In this document: piece by piece, positions 6,367 through 27,089 of the stretch
How the letters are laid out: each line of letters begins with the position of its first letter
Position numbering within the stretch: position 1 is the stretch's first letter
IMG/VR virus record: IMGVR_UViG_3300048834_000195
Coordinates: 1 to 27,089 of that record
DNA: 27,089 nt
Source of the DNA: a virus
Reading direction: 5' to 3' (one strand)
Made by a program: the position numbers and the translations under genes
The notes under the pieces: generated by a model
The model's database searches: none
Told to the model about the DNA's origin: nothing
Seen by the model: the letters and a program-made list of their open reading frames with translations, nothing else

Positions 6367-7026
6367 ATGATAGATATAGATAAACATAAAGATATATTAG
6401 CTGAGATCAGACGTAGATATAATATCAACACGCCTATGAGACTAGCCCATTTTCTAGCGCAGGTAGATCATGAAAGTGCTGGTCTTACTGTACTGGTTGA
6501 GAACCTTAATTATACACCACAAGCATTGTTAGCGAAGTTCTCACGTGAACGCATCACCCAAGCACAGGCTATGAACCTTGGCCGTGTAAAAGGTAGACCT
6601 GCAAAACAACAAGATATTGCTAATGTAATATATGGTGGTCAATGGGGACGCATGAATCTTGGAAATAGACAGGATGGAGATGGGTGGAAATTCCGTGGAC
6701 GTGGCCCGCTACAATGTACTGGTAGAAGGAATTATGCATTATTCGGCTCGTATATGGGTGAGGATTATACAAATGATCCTGATAAGATAGCGACCATTGA
6801 AGTAGGAATGTTATTCGCAGGATGGTATTGGACAGAACGCAAAATAAACCAATTTGCAGATAAGGATTGGCAGGCCAAATCAGGTATAATACTTCATAAT
6901 TTTGATCTGAGTATTGGTCAAGTAATTACACGTAGGATTAATGGTGGTGAGAATGGCATTAAAGAAAGATTTAACCTTTTTTTACAATACAAAAAACTTT
7001 TAAATGACACCAGCACAGCTGAATAG
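6367..7026 (+). CDS. GH19-type endolysin (chitinase-fold lysozyme)
   Basis: This 219-residue single-domain protein has the signatures of phage GH19 muralytic enzymes. It has HFLAQVDHESAGL with the probable catalytic acid E36, VENLNYTPQAL with E45 as candidate second acid, and the KFRGRGPLQCTGRRNY substrate-cleft motif at about residues 102-117. The C-terminal ITRRINGGENGIKER is the usual GH19 end. It would cleave the glycan strand of peptidoglycan at lysis. I see no signal peptide, so release would need a holin; a holin-like gene lies far away at 21447. It overlaps the next gene by 23 bases. Its place in the early/middle operon rather than with the holin is unusual for its role. Confidence 0.9.
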   Translation: MIDIDKHKDILAEIRRRYNINTPMRLAHFLAQVDHESAGLTVLVENLNYTPQALLAKFSRERITQAQAMNLGRVKGRPAKQQDIANVIYGGQWGRMNLGNRQDGDGWKFRGRGPLQCTGRRNYALFGSYMGEDYTNDPDKIATIEVGMLFAGWYWTERKINQFADKDWQAKSGIILHNFDLSIGQVITRRINGGENGIKERFNLFLQYKKLLNDTSTAE

Positions 7027-19378: not shown

Positions 19379-20299
19379 ATGGGAATATTGACAACAGTTT
19401 GGGCGAGGGATATAAAGGAAAAGTTGTTTCCTGATGATATGTTTGTTATGCAGTCTTTTAGTGATGACCCTTGGGTTGTTAACAAGACTGTTGAGCGACC
19501 GCAATCAGGAGTGCTTCCAGTTGCTGTAATTAATAGAAGTACTTATCCAGGTGTGATGGTGAGAAGGGCAGATTCTAGCAATAGCTACAATATGGATGAG
19601 ATCACAACTGATCCTACACACATACCAGACATCGAGGAAGTCGAAGTGAGTTATCCAAAAAGACAATCGGTCCTTAAAGGACACATCGACGTCTTAAATC
19701 TTACACTTGCAAATCAAATTGCATACAGATGGGCGCCATCAGGTGCATCAAATATCATTAGAACGACAGGTGGTAATACAGCTGCAAATACACCAGGTGC
19801 AACTGGTCTTCGTAAGAAGCTCACATTGGCTGATCTATTTAAAGCAAAAACATTCTTTGACGATATGGATGTACCTGCATCGGATAGACACATTCTTATA
19901 CCTGCTTCCATTTATAATCAGTTGACTGAAGACGAAAAAACTGTCTTGATGAGTGCTGATTTTAGATCAGATGCTACGATTAAGGATGGTAGATACACAA
20001 ATATATTAGGATTCAACATCTTTGTAAGAGGTAGAAATAATGTATTGAGATATAACAATGCTGGCACTCCTGTTGCCATCACGCCACAGACAGCAGGTGC
20101 AGCAACTGACAACGCTGCAATATTGTGTTGGCATAAAGACTTCGTAGCGAAAGCAAAAGGTTCTGTAAAAGTATTTTCGGATATTGACAATCCTACATTG
20201 TACGGTAGTGCATTCTCAGCATTGGCTAGAGTAGGTGGTCAAAAGTTATATACAGATCAGACAGGCGTGCTAGCAATCGTGGAAGCGGTTGGCGTATAA
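19379..20299 (+). CDS. Major capsid protein
   Basis: The 306-residue protein follows the protease/scaffold gene, the normal place for the major head subunit, and is the size of Mu gpT (305 aa). It contains PVAVINRSTYPGVMVRRADS, DLFKAKTFFDDMDVPASDRH, LIPASIYNQLTEDEKTVL, ILGFNIFVRGRNNVLRYNNA and LCWHKDFVAKAKGSVKVFSD. The last three are typical of HK97-fold capsid proteins of Bacteroidota phages. No start other than ATG at 19379 is likely; it follows a very A/T-rich leader ending AGTAGTC. Confidence 0.85.
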   Translation: MGILTTVWARDIKEKLFPDDMFVMQSFSDDPWVVNKTVERPQSGVLPVAVINRSTYPGVMVRRADSSNSYNMDEITTDPTHIPDIEEVEVSYPKRQSVLKGHIDVLNLTLANQIAYRWAPSGASNIIRTTGGNTAANTPGATGLRKKLTLADLFKAKTFFDDMDVPASDRHILIPASIYNQLTEDEKTVLMSADFRSDATIKDGRYTNILGFNIFVRGRNNVLRYNNAGTPVAITPQTAGAATDNAAILCWHKDFVAKAKGSVKVFSDIDNPTLYGSAFSALARVGGQKLYTDQTGVLAIVEAVGV

Positions 20300-20303
20300 G
20301 ATA

Positions 20304-20357
20304 ACCAATTGAAATTGGGATTGGGAAGTGGGTCGGTGAAATGAGATAGCCGGCCCA
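20304..20357 (+). terminator. Hairpins after the capsid gene
   Basis: CCAATT-GA-AATTGG (20304-20317) is followed by TGGGTCGG paired with CCGGCCCA (20329-20336 and 20350-20357, one G-U) and then TTTT. The pair could reduce read-through from the highly expressed capsid gene into the lipoprotein gene, making the latter differently expressed. Confidence 0.55.
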
Positions 20358-20399
20358 TTTTAAAGAAACAAAATTTATTCACTTTATTTAAAATTAAAT

Positions 20400-21440
20400 A
20401 TGAAACCACTTTTTAGAATCAACTTAATTCTGCTGGTCTTTACAGCAATTTTCACAAGCTGCGAGCCTGATAAGGCTATCGAAAAGGCAGATCCTACCAA
20501 ACATGCAAGTACTGAACTCAGAGGCGCAAACGGCGTACTTTGTTGTGTAGATGGACCTTTGTCTAATCCAAATGTTGACTGCAAGTATAACAATGATGCC
20601 TGTGTTACCATCGTAGATAACACACTGAAGGGCTACCTAGTGACACCACAGCAAAATGGTACATTATATCAAAACTGCATACCACAGGGATACTGCTGGA
20701 CAGCATTAGAATGTCAGACCGCACAGTATTGGTATGATTACACTTCGCCATATTTCTACATAGATGATGGAAGTAATAACTGTGGCGGCTGGTCTTATGG
20801 TATGGCTACAAGTGGCCAAACAACTTCACAACTGAATAATGTAAATCTAGCTTTTACCGGAACGAACTGGGATACTGGACAGCCTGAGACCCAATATTGT
20901 GATCTGTATTTTAACTACTTCGCTACGCCTGATGATGGTAATAGATTTAGTAGGTCCTACTGGCGACACGGAGTAGACTCATGTGATGCAAATATGATCG
21001 ATAGATTTATAGCAGGACAGATGATATTAACAGCATGGCAGCGGATGGCAGCGGATGCGGATGCGGATGGTGACATAGATGCCAATGATAGCGAACTTAT
21101 CAGACAGTTAGCAGGCGTGACCGCTGTAGGATCACTGCCCACATGCAGTGTAACTGGAGCCGTCGGATTAGGTACATCACCTTATGTATATGTCAATCAA
21201 AGAGCCTATCATATAGCAGCTAGTAATTGGGCAGTCAATAACGATCAAGTCAAGATCACACGCCTGGCATACATCAATGAAAGGCTTCCCGAAAGATTGA
21301 TCAATACAGTGACAGGATGCAAGGTTACCAATCCATGGGGCAATTTTAACACAGCGCCATATAATTACGGACTTGGCAAACACTGCTATGTGATCAAGCG
21401 TGGTGATGTGAATGCAAGTCATTATCCTAGTATCTGCTAA
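20400..21440 (+). CDS. Exported Cys-rich lipoprotein with a dockerin-like calcium loop
   Basis: The 346-residue protein has a signal peptide (KPLFRINLILLVFTAIFTSC) with a lipobox cysteine at C21, followed by EPDK. An acidic stretch here resembles the Bacteroidota signal for display on the outer surface. The mature part has 14 further cysteines and many aromatic residues. Residues 219-230 (DADADGDIDAND) place Asp at positions 1, 3, 5, 9 and 12, Gly at 6 and Ile at 8, as in dockerin or EF-hand calcium loops, followed by SELIRQL. A second GDVNAS stretch lies at 335-340. No enzyme motif is seen. It sits between the capsid and holin genes, yet is unlike a virion protein. A surface factor made by the lysogen, or a superinfection-exclusion lipoprotein, is plausible. 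Confidence 0.8.
   Translation: MKPLFRINLILLVFTAIFTSCEPDKAIEKADPTKHASTELRGANGVLCCVDGPLSNPNVDCKYNNDACVTIVDNTLKGYLVTPQQNGTLYQNCIPQGYCWTALECQTAQYWYDYTSPYFYIDDGSNNCGGWSYGMATSGQTTSQLNNVNLAFTGTNWDTGQPETQYCDLYFNYFATPDDGNRFSRSYWRHGVDSCDANMIDRFIAGQMILTAWQRMAADADADGDIDANDSELIRQLAGVTAVGSLPTCSVTGAVGLGTSPYVYVNQRAYHIAASNWAVNNDQVKITRLAYINERLPERLINTVTGCKVTNPWGNFNTAPYNYGLGKHCYVIKRGDVNASHYPSIC
21038..21070 (+). repeat. Short GCGGAT tandem repeat in the calcium-loop codons
   Basis: GGCAGCGGAT occurs twice and GCGGAT three times in a row, coding for Ala-Asp repeats just before and inside the dockerin-like loop. A gain or loss of one 6-base unit would keep the reading frame and lengthen or shorten the Asp-Ala run. 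Confidence 0.6.
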
Positions 21441-21446
21441 GAGATC

Positions 21447-21911
21447 ATGGAGAGGCTGATAAAATTTGAAAGTTGGGCGGTGTTATGGGGGAGTTTGATG
21501 GGAAGTGTTTTAAGTTTTATCAGTCCTGTATCGCCGTTTATTGCCCTTGCAATATGTCTTATACTTGGTGATTGGAGGCTAGGTGTACTAGCTGCTAAGA
21601 AAAGAAAAGAGATTATAAATGCTGAAGGATTTAAGAAAACATTGACAAAATTGACAGTTTACTTGATCCTAATATTATCTTCAGAAGGCGTCAAAAGAGT
21701 TTTTTTTGATGGATTTGAAGATAGCTTTTTCCCTTTTGTAGCACAATTTCCTATTACCTATATAGCTGCATTTGCAATATGTATGAAGGAATTTAAGAGC
21801 ATTTCAGATAAAGCATATCAACTAACTGGTGTTGATTTTTGGAATGTAATTTCAGAGAGAATAGAAACCGTTTTTTCATTATTCAAAAAAAATAAGAGCG
21901 ATGACGCCTAA
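21447..21911 (+). CDS. Phage holin-like membrane protein
   Basis: This 154-residue protein has two to three membrane segments: WGSLMGSVLSFISPVSPFIA through ALAICLILGDW, LTVYLILILSSEG, and FPITYIAAFAICMKE. It ends with FKSISDKAYQLTGVDFWNVI and a basic tail. The plan matches holins of Bacteroidota phages, which form membrane lesions to release the endolysin. Composition is A/T-rich. It overlaps the next gene by 11 bases. The endolysin lies far away at 6367, in another operon. Confidence 0.75.
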   Translation: MERLIKFESWAVLWGSLMGSVLSFISPVSPFIALAICLILGDWRLGVLAAKKRKEIINAEGFKKTLTKLTVYLILILSSEGVKRVFFDGFEDSFFPFVAQFPITYIAAFAICMKEFKSISDKAYQLTGVDFWNVISERIETVFSLFKKNKSDDA

Positions 21912-22137
21912 AGAAATTAAGTCATTTTTTGACATATATCCAAACGCCGAAATTTACAAAGTAGGCAAAAGATTCTTTCTGTCTAAGGATAAGAATCTAG
22001 CTGAAGACTATGCCAGGACAAAAGAACTGGAAGTCGAAACTATCAATGCCAATACCAAGCTTGGCAAAGATGAATTGACAGAAGAAGAAAAGAAAGCAGC
22101 TGAAGCGGCAAAAGCAGCTGCTAATAACAAACCATAA
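21901..22137 (+). CDS. 78-aa unknown protein
   Basis: A soluble N-terminal half (IKSFFDIYPNAEIYKVGKRF) has the look of a small conserved phage domain. The C-terminal half is low-complexity Lys/Glu/Ala (TEEEKKAAEAAKAAANNKP). It overlaps the holin gene and precedes the sheath gene by 12 bases. A head-tail joining or structural adaptor role is possible by position only. Confidence 0.65.
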   Translation: MTPKEIKSFFDIYPNAEIYKVGKRFFLSKDKNLAEDYARTKELEVETINANTKLGKDELTEEEKKAAEAAKAAANNKP

Positions 22138-22149
22138 AAGTAAGCAATC

Positions 22150-23316
22150 ATGCCTTTAAATAACATAAGTTTTGAAACGGTAGCCGGTGGGCTTGGACGT
22201 TTACCAGCTGGTGAAGATCACATAAGTGCGATCGTGATGCCACTGGCTTCATCTCCAGCAGCTTGGGGGACAAACATAGGCAAAAGGTACGTAAGTACAG
22301 AGGAAGCTGAACAAGATCTTATTACGTCTGACAGTGTCAATTATGGCCTATTGCATTACTTCATCTCTGAATATTTCAGAATGAGTGGACCTTCAGAACT
22401 GTATGTCGTAAATGAGTCAGGTGCTGGTTTCAGTGCTGATAAGTTCAATGAGATCACAGCTGGTAAAGTAAGACAAATCTTTTGGTATGGTGTGAATACC
22501 TTCGCTACCATTGCGGCAAAAGTAGGTACGCTCAAAACATTTGCAGCGGCTCTAGAAGCTGCTTTTGTTCCGGCTGTTATCATCACTAATATCAAAGATG
22601 AGGCTACAGCGGTCACGTCTGGAGTTACAGACTTGAGAGCACTCGACGCTGATAACATATCAGTCCTGGTGTCAGGTGATGGATCAGGCAAAGGTGCAGC
22701 ACTAGCTACATCGCTAGCAATCAAGTATGTGAATGGTGGTGGTGCCTTGCTAGGTGCATTGTCTAGAGCAGCGGTTCATGAGAATATTGGTTGGGTAGGT
22801 AAGTTTCCACTTGCCAATACTGTGGATTATCAAGATGTGTATCTTTCTGATGGGCAAAAAGTAAGGGCTGTAGCGGCTACGCTCCTGAATGCCATCAATG
22901 ATAAAGGTTATATCTTCCAAAGGAATATAGCAGGTGTGACAGGATCATACTTCCAAGATACGCACACGTGTACATTAAGTAGTTCAGACTATGCATTTAT
23001 CGAAAATGTAAGGACTATCCAAAAGGCAAAAAGAGTGATCCGTACACAGCTGATACCTGATCTTAATAGTCCACTCACTGTAAATGCTGATGGTAGTCTT
23101 AGCCCGGACACGGTTAAGTACTTTGAGAATCAAACAAGCCGTCCACTTAACCTTATGCTTAATGCTGAGGAGATTTCAGCCTTTTCAGTCTTTGTGGATC
23201 CACTACAAAATGTACTCACAGAAAGTAAGCTGAAGATACAGGTAAGGATAGTACCGAGAGGTGTAGCTAGAAACATATTGGTTAACATCGGCTATGCCGT
23301 ATCAGTAACTAATTAA
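22150..23316 (+). CDS. Tail sheath-like protein (DUF2586 type)
   Basis: The 388-residue protein matches DUF2586-type sheath proteins of contractile tails. It has VAGGLGRLPAGEDHISAIVM, a glycine/alanine-rich core (GKGAALATSLAIKYVNGGGA), a DYQDVYLSDGQKVRAVAATL segment, NDKGYIFQRNIAGVTGSYFQ, and a C-terminal SKLKIQVRIVPRGVARNIL that fits the C-terminal sheath strand exchange region. It marks the phage as a myovirus, as expected for Mu-like elements. The fibre gene follows 2 bases after its stop. Confidence 0.88.
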   Translation: MPLNNISFETVAGGLGRLPAGEDHISAIVMPLASSPAAWGTNIGKRYVSTEEAEQDLITSDSVNYGLLHYFISEYFRMSGPSELYVVNESGAGFSADKFNEITAGKVRQIFWYGVNTFATIAAKVGTLKTFAAALEAAFVPAVIITNIKDEATAVTSGVTDLRALDADNISVLVSGDGSGKGAALATSLAIKYVNGGGALLGALSRAAVHENIGWVGKFPLANTVDYQDVYLSDGQKVRAVAATLLNAINDKGYIFQRNIAGVTGSYFQDTHTCTLSSSDYAFIENVRTIQKAKRVIRTQLIPDLNSPLTVNADGSLSPDTVKYFENQTSRPLNLMLNAEEISAFSVFVDPLQNVLTESKLKIQVRIVPRGVARNILVNIGYAVSVTN

Positions 23317-23318
23317 GG

Positions 23319-24569
23319 ATGAGACAGTATAGCGATAAGATAGATTGGCCGTTTGTACTCACAGTTGCATTTTTTGCGCTGTTGGGTATGTTTACGGTTG
23401 TCCATGGTCAAGGTACTGTAAGACCTGATCAATTTACACTAGAGCCAAATCCAAACAATACCAACTTTGAAGTCTACTCGCAAAAAGGAGGCGTCAACAG
23501 GCGTGCTACCTTAGCAAGTATCAGAGCATATGTGTTGCAAGGTCTTACTTCAGTGGCAGGTCCAGCAGGTCCAGCAGGTCCACCGAATAGCCTTACCATA
23601 GGTACCGTAACGACAGGTACAGCAGCCGCTACCATCACAGGTACGGCACCAAGTCAGACTTTAAATCTGGTCTTACCTTCAGGTGGTGGAGGAAGCGATA
23701 CAGCTCAAAACCTTAGTAATGGTGGTAAGGTAGGATATAATCAGACCATTAATATTAGTGGTGGTACTGGTGTTGTTTTTGACATCAGGGACGCTGATGC
23801 AGATAGTCTCAATGAGAGACAAGTTTTTACGCTCGATAGCATAGGGGCCTGGAACCTGACAAAATCAGGGGGATCCGGGAATATAAAGGATGGGGTTTCA
23901 TACCTAGATGACAGTTTGAAGCTTTGGGGATATGTGGCCAATTTGCGGCCACATATCAACAGAGCGTACCAAGTAGCTGATACAGTGGCACGGAATGCCA
24001 TCACAAGCCCAAGGCGTGGTAGTGTCGCTATCATTGCTAATGCTGATGGTAGCAATACACAAGGTCTTAGTTTCTTTGACTCGCTTACCTGGAGCATTCC
24101 AGTACTGGTAAATAAGAAGACATCTTTTCAATACACTGTAACAGCAGGATCCACTACAGCTGTAGTGTGGGCCACTGGTCTAGGTGTCACCATCACTACT
24201 AACGAAACGACAGGTGAATGTAATGTAGCGGTCCCTTCAGGTATCGATCTGAAGAAAGTACATATTACACTACCATTTGGCGCTGTCGATGGGTCAAACA
24301 ACTATTATGTCAAGCTAGATTATGCAGGTGTAAGGACCTACAATACTAGTATCTCTACGATCAACTTACCTTCAGTACTTGTAGGATCAGCGGTCACCAC
24401 GTCAATGAGTCGATCAAGTCCGGTCTTATTTAGTCCTGATGGAAATGCAGGTGTAGACGTAGGTATATCTGCTATTGGCGGTGGTGATGGAAGTGACCTT
24501 GAGATAGCTATAAAAGACTTTCTGATTGCAACAACCCAATTCGTAACACTTAACTTTTCTACTAATTAA
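23319..24569 (+). CDS. Exported fibre-like protein with a short collagen-like segment
   Basis: The 416-residue protein begins with a hydrophobic export segment (residues ~10-30, [20 protein letters not shown] ending in GQG). The Bacteroidota fibre-type sequence [20 protein letters not shown] comes next, then GPAGPAGPP at ~84-92. Residues ~93-125 hold [20 protein letters not shown], a phage fibre module. A beta-rich C-terminus ends in [13 protein letters not shown]. Fibre proteins normally assemble in the cytoplasm, so an export signal is odd. It could be a fibre gene with an uncleaved hydrophobic start, or a surface adhesin carried by the phage. Confidence 0.7.
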
Positions 24570-24570
24570 T

Positions 24571-27089
24571 ATGAAGTATTTAAGTATCATTCTAATGTTA
24601 TTTGTATGCCATTTAAGTGGCATTACACAAACTGTAATTCCACTTCCTGGATATCAAGCTGTATTAAATGTATTCCCGACTGTGGAAGATGACACGCTGA
24701 TCACCGCTGAGTTTTCAGTTACGGACTTCAGTAATCAGTTTAATGGTACTGATATAGTAGGCCGTGAGAATCTTGTTATATGGCGTAATTGCCAAAGATA
24801 TCCAGTACTCGCAGTTGATCAAGCGTTTGCAACATCGGTGATCCTTCAGCTGAATAAAAATGGTAATCCTAATTTGGTTCCTGGTGTATGTGCATTGCTT
24901 CAGGAGACGCCTGGCATGGTGTCACATTTGATATCAGGTATAACGGACTCAGATAAGCAGTGTATAGATAGTTATTATCGGGTCGATGGTGGTGGTTCGG
25001 ATAGTTGTTGTATAGAAATATACCGTACTGATACCATACCTGATAATCCTGAATATGGCGACTTAAAGTATAATGTAAGTGCTGAATTTGATATATGGCA
25101 GGTGTGGGATGGCACACAATGGCTCACAATATATGATGGTGATAATGATCGTACAAATGAGCTTACTACCTACAAATTTTATTACGGTATGGGAATGAGA
25201 CCACCGGGAGACAAAAACGGTGATATCTTAATAGACTATCAAGATGATTATGTCAAATATTGGAATTTCGGATGGTATGATTTATTCCCAATCAACCAAG
25301 TAACTGAAAGTACAACGGTGTCAGATACACCTACTTTGGATTTGAATATGAGTGGGTATGATATAAGTGGTGTTGTAGATACTTCTATAATAGGCACTAA
25401 ACATGATCTTACACTGATAAGAATAGACACCACACTTAATCAAGATTTAACCATAAGTGGAGACACTTTATATTTAAGTGGTGATCCTACACCAGTACCA
25501 CTACCAATCTTATCAGGTCCAGCAGGTCCAACAGGTCCGACGGGTGCAACAGGTGCCACAGGTCCAGCAGGTCCAATTGGTTTGACAGGTCCGACGGGTG
25601 CAACTGGAGCTACAGGCGCTACAGGACCGACAGGTCCTATTGGTTTGACAGGTCCAGCAGGTCCGACAGGCCCGACAGGTGCCACAGGTCCTACAGGCCC
25701 AGCAGGTCCAGCCGGTGACCCTGCTACAGATGATCAGACTTTGACACTTTTAGATTCTATAAACAGAGTCTTCAGGTTAAATATATCAGGTGGTAATACT
25801 GTGTCTTTTAAAGATACGGATGCACAGACATTGACTCAGTCATTTACTAGTCCATCTTATGCAACTGCATCGCTTGTCAATGGTGGTAGCTATAGAGATA
25901 GTACAGGATATATGAGATTAGAAACTCAGATAGCGACTCCTGGTAGTAGATTCTACAGATACAAGAGTAACCTTGGTGATATCATGGGAATGGCTGAAGA
26001 TCCTTCCCTTACTAATAGTGGTAATATAGAGATACTGAGATCAGGCAATGTAATGTCTTGGGGATTGAAAACACTTGGCGCTACTAATGGTAAGATATGG
26101 AAGTATAATGGTAGTGCTTGGGCCTTGAGTGATGATAATGTAGGTGGTTCGGGAACCGTCACAGGTACAGGTTCTGCAAATAAAGTAAGTTATTGGACAG
26201 GTACTAATTCGCAAGGTTTTAATAATAATTTTCACTATGATCCTATAACTGAAAGGTTAGGTTTAGGTACTGGTAGTCCTTTATATAAACTTGATGTCAC
26301 GGATGATATTAGGGTGAACGAAGCGAGAATAGGAAAAGGTGCTGGAAATATTGTAAACAATTTATGTTTTGGAAATGGAGCATTAAATTCGATAACTACA
26401 GGATTTCAAGATTTGGCATTTGGTTTTGGCGCCCTCGCAGCATGTACAACTTGTAATGGATCATTAGCGATAGGTAACAATACTCTTCAGAATAATTTTA
26501 TAAGCGGTACAAATGTCATTGCTATAGGTAACGGAGCAATGGAAAATGCAAGTAATGTGTCAAACTGTCTAGGCTTAGGATTTCAGGCACTAAGAAATGT
26601 AATTGCATCTAATAACATTGGGATTATGTCCGGCCAACTTCTAACAAGTGGAACTCAAAATATATTAATTAACCCGGGTGTTACTGGCGTTACTACTGGG
26701 AATAGGAATTTAATTGCAGGCCATGAAGCAGGTCAGGGCATCGGATCTGGATCTGACAACGTAATATTTGGGCGTAGGGCGGCATGGAGTATGTCTAATA
26801 CATCTGGGTCTATTGTAATAGGTGCATTAGCGGCTTTTAATGAAACATCTGGTAATGTTCTATATATTACCAACCAAACAGGTACCACAAATGGAGTTTT
26901 TGGAAGTTATGCCACGGCTAAATTTGGGATAAACCAAGCGCCTTCAGCGATGACACACACATTTGATGTAAATGGTGACACACGTGTACGTGGTGCTTTA
27001 TACAATGCTTCAGGATCAAGTGGATCCACAGGCCAATTTCTTACTTCAGGTGGTGCAGGCACATTCACATGGACAAATGCTCCAGTAAA
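24571..27089 (+). CDS. Exported collagen-like and YadA-head-like fibre protein (partial)
   Basis: The frame stays open from ATG 24571 to the window end (839 residues, 3' end missing). Residues 1-20 look like a signal peptide ([20 protein letters not shown]). Residues ~25-315 form an unrecognised domain with an EF-hand-like loop at 214-225 ([12 protein letters not shown]). A collagen-like Gly-X-Y run covers residues 316-384. Further on are fibre-type repeats ([30 protein letters not shown]). A YadA-head-like section at ~595-760 contains [14 protein letters not shown] and [14 protein letters not shown]. The end ([16 protein letters not shown]) usually precedes a C-terminal intramolecular chaperone in tail fibres. 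Confidence 0.85.
25516..25722 (+). repeat. 23 Gly-X-Y collagen-like codon triplets
   Basis: Nine-base units of the form GGT-CCA/GCA/ACG-N run in frame without interruption, coding [12 protein letters not shown] and GLT triplets and ending in GDP. Two larger units ([10 protein letters not shown]) repeat inside. In such proteins three chains form a rigid triple-helical stalk. The DNA repetition invites length change by slippage. Confidence 0.9.

Follow-up and report, generated by a model that had tools for sequence, protein, structure and literature searches.

The window, that is, the whole stretch of DNA analysed (27,089 bases), is a virus record without tRNA genes. By gene content the phage is Mu-like, since Portal_Mu, Mu F, a DUF2586 tail sheath and a transposase are present. 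The order in the region of interest is capsid, hairpins, lipoprotein, holin, small protein and sheath, with the following features:

19379–20299 (+), major capsid protein, the left neighbour
20305–20361 (+), two hairpins after the capsid gene (20305–20324 and 20325–20361), the second terminator-like; common in related phages
20400–21440 (+), cysteine-rich lipoprotein with a dockerin-type module, 346 aa (ORF, Pfam, cysteine count, chromosomal relatives)
20400–20462 (+), predicted lipoprotein signal peptide with the lipobox FTSC (sequence)
20463–20963 (+), N-terminal cysteine-rich region, residues 22–188, with nine cysteines and no homologue found
20964–21113 (+), dockerin-type pair, residues 189–238, the loop of half 1 degenerate and the calcium loop of half 2 intact (Pfam, chromosomal relatives)
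21054–21089 (+), F-hand loop DADADGDIDAND, residues 219–230, partly a GCGGAT repeat (sequence)
21393–21419 (+), C-terminal IKRGDVNAS segment, downstream of the dockerin, an order shared with secreted proteins encoded on chromosomes; weak alone
21447–21911 (+), holin-like protein, 6 bases 3′ of the lipoprotein gene (Phage_holin_4_1, E 1.6e-6)
21901–22137 (+), small protein, flanked by holin and sheath; similar ones occur in the phage contigs L007 and L008 and, by eye, in the prophage of genome G582
22150–23316 (+), tail sheath (DUF2586), the right neighbour, used as query for relatives

The lipoprotein frame starts with ATG and contains zero internal stops. Its acidic product carries FTSC at residues 18–21 after a hydrophobic stretch, as in bacterial lipoprotein signals (predicted processing), a tetrapeptide that fits the relaxed PROSITE-type lipobox; Cys-21 (codon 20460–20462) is the expected lipidation site. 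With F at −3, FTSC departs from the strict consensus [LVI][ASTVI][GAS]C (PMC6139136, in part). There are 15 cysteines (positions 21, 48, 49, 61, 68, 93, 99, 105, 128, 167, 195, 249, 307, 329 and 346), one in the lipobox and 14 others, so that the clear lipobox and the 14 extra cysteines reported in the first-pass annotation are both present. The cysteine content is 4.34%; the 28 other window genes used average 0.76% (binomial P ∼1e-7). The 14 non-lipidated residues would permit seven disulphides. Codon usage (−1.061) falls inside the range of the window genes (−0.940 to −1.161); the gene thus resembles the phage in composition and does not stand out as foreign. A structure predicted without an alignment is unusable (mean pLDDT 31).

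Pfam Dockerin_1 (PF00404) aligns with residues 192–235 (E 4.5e-4) at 20.8 bits, just below the curated gathering score of 22.9 bits. As in type I dockerins, there is a two-half pair with the second calcium loop intact; unlike in type I dockerins, the acidic ligands are missing from the first loop. Type I dockerins belong to a cellulosomal enzyme context, whereas the present module sits in a phage lipoprotein. The second loop, DADADGDIDAND, fits DxDxDGxxxxxD perfectly, and no other match to a stricter form of that pattern occurs in 867 ORFs of at least 150 aa (from 85 related loci, the window and the window copy L001). The Pfam match disappears when the acidic loop is masked and the loop is partly encoded by the GCGGAT repeat, so that the loop by itself overstates the case for a dockerin. 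The earlier description of the loop as a good match to dockerin or EF-hand calcium sites is supported; the site lies inside a two-half pair with chromosomal homologues. At the DNA level, GCGGAT/GGCAGCGGAT repeats at window positions 21040–21075 code for the acidic loop, which suggests slippage. A PDB sequence search with the lipoprotein returned chance-level matches only, one of them a cellulosomal scaffoldin dockerin (E 0.72).

The best chromosomal match, in G758, covers residues 185–238 with 29.8 bits and an E-value of 3.8e-7 for that one genome; after correction for the search of roughly 800 genomes, the value is still ∼3e-4. It is a dockerin pair in a 701-aa signal-peptide protein, with an IKLGDLDGSS segment after the dockerin. 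At E ≤ 0.01, matches to the lipoprotein occur in 4 of 395 genomes of one phylum, in 22 of 298 genomes from the order of G041 and in 12 of 100 genomes from the family of G582 (these samples overlap), and each of the matches listed covers the dockerin. The four genomes that hold sheath relatives give no lipoprotein match at E ≤ 1. The alignment with these chromosomal proteins makes the dockerin part of the lipoprotein a homologue of the pairs in large secreted Bacteroidota proteins; the claim rests on that alignment, since the scores with the loop masked and for the C-terminal profile (below) are weak. The Bacteroidota proteins checked are mostly large, and several have, in our reading, a signal peptide and a T9SS-like C-terminus. 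The proteins compared do not include L170, L171 and many loci from the order of G041, for which realignment on a single strand gave negative scores or frames without relation. They share with the phage protein the order of a GV..D...I dockerin pair followed by xIKxGDxxxS, and L117 and L121 likewise end soon after. Unlike them, the phage protein is a lipoprotein with a cysteine-rich front and a long spacer. Some chromosomal matches reach further toward the N-terminus, with 26–31% identity; these were not counted as evidence.

Bacteroidota dockerin pairs often have a segment like FVAIKVGDVNGSA downstream. In the lipoprotein, the C-terminus is CYVIKRGDVNASHYPSIC, at the same position relative to the dockerin. 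Within the phylum, a DNA pattern for F..xIKxGDVN is matched 14 times, in 4 of 198 genomes (the reversed pattern, as a control, once), and in translation each of the 14 sites is preceded by a dockerin pair; within the order of G582, the pattern occurs in 13 of 119 genomes, G582 included. In viral contigs, the pattern is found in seven stretches. Motif translations were obtained for six, none with a dockerin, and five of the six belong to one prohead-protease-like family (our reading) with identical IKRGDVN letters; the motif is therefore weak by itself. One of these six pattern-selected proteins scores 19.3 bits with the module profile (built from 14 module sequences minus the near-duplicate L106), equal to the level of the lipoprotein. 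With the loop masked, the lipoprotein score falls from 18.8 to 6.0 bits, which 2 of 3000 shuffles equal. The C-terminal part of the profile gives 4.9 bits against the whole lipoprotein, a score attained in 2 of 2000 shuffles; for residues 237–346 alone it gives 7.1 bits, attained in 0 of 2000, some of the shuffles giving no score.

Full-length homologues of the lipoprotein were found neither in the viral contigs, nor in the phage records, nor among the ORFs of the 85 related loci, nor in 50 whole viral records (of 83 contigs). In the genome contigs, 14 stretches fitted a peptide pattern and none was confirmed as a homologue; exact patterns of this kind would miss distant relatives. Residues 22–188 and most of 240–330 have no clear relative in the viral, phage, related-locus and genome collections searched. 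Among the titles and abstracts listed on dockerins with phages, prophages, morons or lipoproteins, on Winoviridae lipoproteins and on exclusion lipoproteins, none mentions a phage dockerin lipoprotein. The first-pass annotation knew of no described family with this combination, and no full-length family emerged from the collections searched. As to whether homologues belong to prophages or to surface loci of the chromosome, the dockerin module leads to chromosomal secreted proteins, and a phage homologue was not found. A module of chromosomal type without a phage homologue in these collections would fit a passenger, a captured piece of a host secreted-protein gene without a selected role. The intact 346-codon frame, the lipobox of its own, the phage-like codon usage and the lack of a clear chromosomal counterpart to residues 22–188 in the genomes searched speak against this origin, which we hold to be improbable.

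Of the named phages, the Flavobacterium phages lotta8, pippi8 and FPSV have the most similar sheaths (∼41%), and Peternella has a more distant one; the phage records examined give the family Winoviridae (Winoviridae and Peternella are described in PMC8776804, in part). Queries with the transposase and the capsid protein found no close viral contig. The terminase of contig L091 is 84% identical, and that contig ends just beyond the terminase, short of the position of the lipoprotein gene. The nearest phage contigs are L007 and L008 (sheath 55% and 53%), where the order is capsid, a 97–98-aa protein with a hydrophobic stretch (taken for a holin), small protein and sheath. In the integrated prophage of G582, on a 176.9-kb contig, it is capsid, small protein and sheath (sheath E 1.1e-136). 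The lipoprotein gene is missing from these three nearest relatives and the flanking genes are collinear; it is thus an extra, accessory gene in the window phage, inserted as morons are between genes that are adjacent in relatives. Its place between capsid and sheath could suit a virion-associated or assembly protein. A lipobox, the cysteine content, the absence from the three relatives and the lack of a match to head or tail families make that role very improbable and support a non-structural type of lipoprotein, as already proposed when the gene was set apart from the usual Mu-like structural components.

In the 36 loci with both genes recognised (the window copy L001 included), the capsid–sheath interval ranges from 18 to 2074 bases. 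The longer intervals hold lysis genes, for instance endolysins in L019 and L040; in Peternella the interval contains an amidase, and in L165 and L168 lipoproteins with a C-terminal membrane segment. Judged by these contents, the interval serves as a slot for lysis and accessory genes. With the holin gene only 6 bases away, the protein could then be a factor that, in place of a spanin, weakens the outer membrane in which it sits and so aids holin and endolysin, the more so as the L165 and L168 lipoproteins show the architecture of unimolecular spanins. Like phage spanins, it is a lipoprotein encoded next to a holin; unlike them, it is long (346 aa), acidic and cysteine-rich, and has no membrane segment beyond the signal peptide. 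Past the signal peptide, KD19 peaks at 1.36 (residue 237, away from the C-terminus), versus 1.48–2.26 near the C-terminus in L006, L165, L167 and L168. In addition, 14 periplasmic cysteines are predicted, whereas none of the 58 u-spanins covered in PMC6139136 (in part) has any. A unimolecular spanin is rejected on the missing C-terminal transmembrane segment and the 14 cysteines besides the lipobox. Given also that L007, L008 and the G582 prophage do without the gene, a lysis role in the broader sense seems unlikely, a little less so than a passenger.

Candidate unimolecular spanins of Winoviridae-like phages, with a lipobox and a C-terminal membrane segment, occur at L006:9283–9786, L165:9159–9671, L167:1770–2276 and L168:9214–9756; they have periplasmic cysteines, unlike the 58 u-spanins of PMC6139136 (in part). 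In the window, a GH19-type endolysin candidate lies at 6367–7026, in the early region and far from the holin.

The hairpins before the lipoprotein gene (−26 kcal/mol, z −2.9) had been viewed as separating it from the capsid gene. They are real, but they are no special mark of this locus. With a rule of at least 7 stem pairs and at least 4 T, a terminator-like hairpin occurs within 90 bases after the capsid gene in 27 of the 36 loci, or 26 of 35 without L001 (some loci being near-identical to one another), versus 1 of 36 for a control stretch inside the capsid gene. L007 and L008 have no such hairpin. By this distribution the post-capsid hairpins are a feature of the group, assigned to the capsid gene in the relatives. 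The Bacteroidota −7 box has the consensus TAnnTTTG. In 20240–20400 no such box occurs, and a match with one mismatch overlaps the start codon. Between the lipoprotein stop codon and the holin there is no terminator-like site. Published surface-export signals of Bacteroidota lipoproteins, C-X-K-(D/E)2, SDDDD and SDDFE (PMC5080379, in part), which may not be those of the host, are absent, the cysteine being followed by EPDKAIEK.

These observations bear on the idea of the first-pass annotation that a lysogen expresses the protein from the prophage and displays it on the cell, altering adhesion or phage entry. An accessory gene with a host-type extracellular module would suit lysogenic conversion, and proteins with Q-rule signal peptides are reported in other Bacteroidota phages, those of Porphyromonas (PMC10367356, in part). 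Those proteins resemble the present one in that a Bacteroidota phage protein is routed to the host export machinery; they differ, by description, as signal peptidase I substrates and not lipoproteins. With a late-cluster position 6 bases before the holin, a terminator-like hairpin before the gene, no −7 box upstream and no published surface-export motif, display by a lysogen finds no support. Conversion appears doubtful, if the least so of the alternatives, and a late-made lipoprotein facing the periplasm is the simpler reading of the missing box and motif.

The most likely reading, to which we give a probability of about 0.38 and which is thus tentative, is a late accessory lipoprotein anchored in the outer membrane, whose action on the host envelope would most likely be receptor blocking or superinfection exclusion. 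On this view, the late operon of a Mu-like Bacteroidota phage carries the accessory gene at its lysis slot, and the product would leave the cytoplasm through Sec, receive its lipid at Cys-21 and become an anchored outer-membrane protein. The protein would fold with disulphides and with calcium in a dockerin-type pair like those on secreted Bacteroidota proteins. From its place in the envelope it would, late in infection, most likely block or mask the phage receptor, which is probably a transporter of the outer membrane; the cell would then escape re-infection, and released virions would not be lost on debris.

Receptor-blocking phage lipoproteins have precedents. Llp of T5 is periplasmic and jams FhuA (PMC9586334, in part); since it closes the receptor from there, blocking does not necessitate surface exposure. 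Ltp of Streptococcus phages is another example (PMC3952083, in part). The likeness to Llp, a phage-encoded envelope lipoprotein, is one of kind and action only: such lipoproteins are small, and exclusion proteins are made early in infection (PMC9586334, in part), whereas the window protein has 346 aa and belongs to a late cluster. This difference counts against exclusion, as do the endolysins and candidate spanins in the interval of related phages, which fit a lysis role equally well.

Taken on its sequence features, the protein is a real accessory lipoprotein, in part a dockerin module of host type, and as such a new variant among phage envelope lipoproteins; it is probably a cell-envelope tool of the virus and not a component of the particle. 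A more specific scenario is a long shot: the phage would have made, from a surface-type dockerin module found in its hosts, a lipid-anchored envelope protein that hooks into the outer-membrane or secreted protein network of the host late in infection and bars other phages, a receptor blocker built with calcium and disulphides unlike the small known ones. Envelope-acting phage genes decide which phage infects which host, and to our knowledge few have been characterised for Bacteroidota phages. A phage-borne copy of a host dockerin module, if this is what the gene carries, would offer a handle on the binding partner of the module and a candidate exclusion factor.

Other exported proteins occur around the sheath gene. 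In the window, the proteins at 23319–24569 and 24571–27087, directly 3′ of the sheath, have Sec-type signals that, by the Q-rule of Bacteroidota, should be cleaved before Q. The second has a Pfam collagen match, and homologues of the first occupy the equivalent position in L008 and in the prophage of G582 (L162). Fibre-like secreted proteins seem regular in this phage lineage. In the phage contig L007 (8210–10440), the sheath is followed by a protein with a signal peptide and by the first part of a sulfatase (Pfam E 3.3e-24) that has one as well. Family-like proteins of ∼142–160 aa with Sec signals (AQ..TPRFGT..DNTGR-like) lie shortly upstream of the sheath match in L038, L046, L048, L051, L058, L062, L065, L072 and L083. 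A hydrophobic segment resembling a signal opens the capsid ORFs of L164, L165, L167 and L168; PMC10367356 (in part) mentions capsid proteins with signal peptides of this sort.
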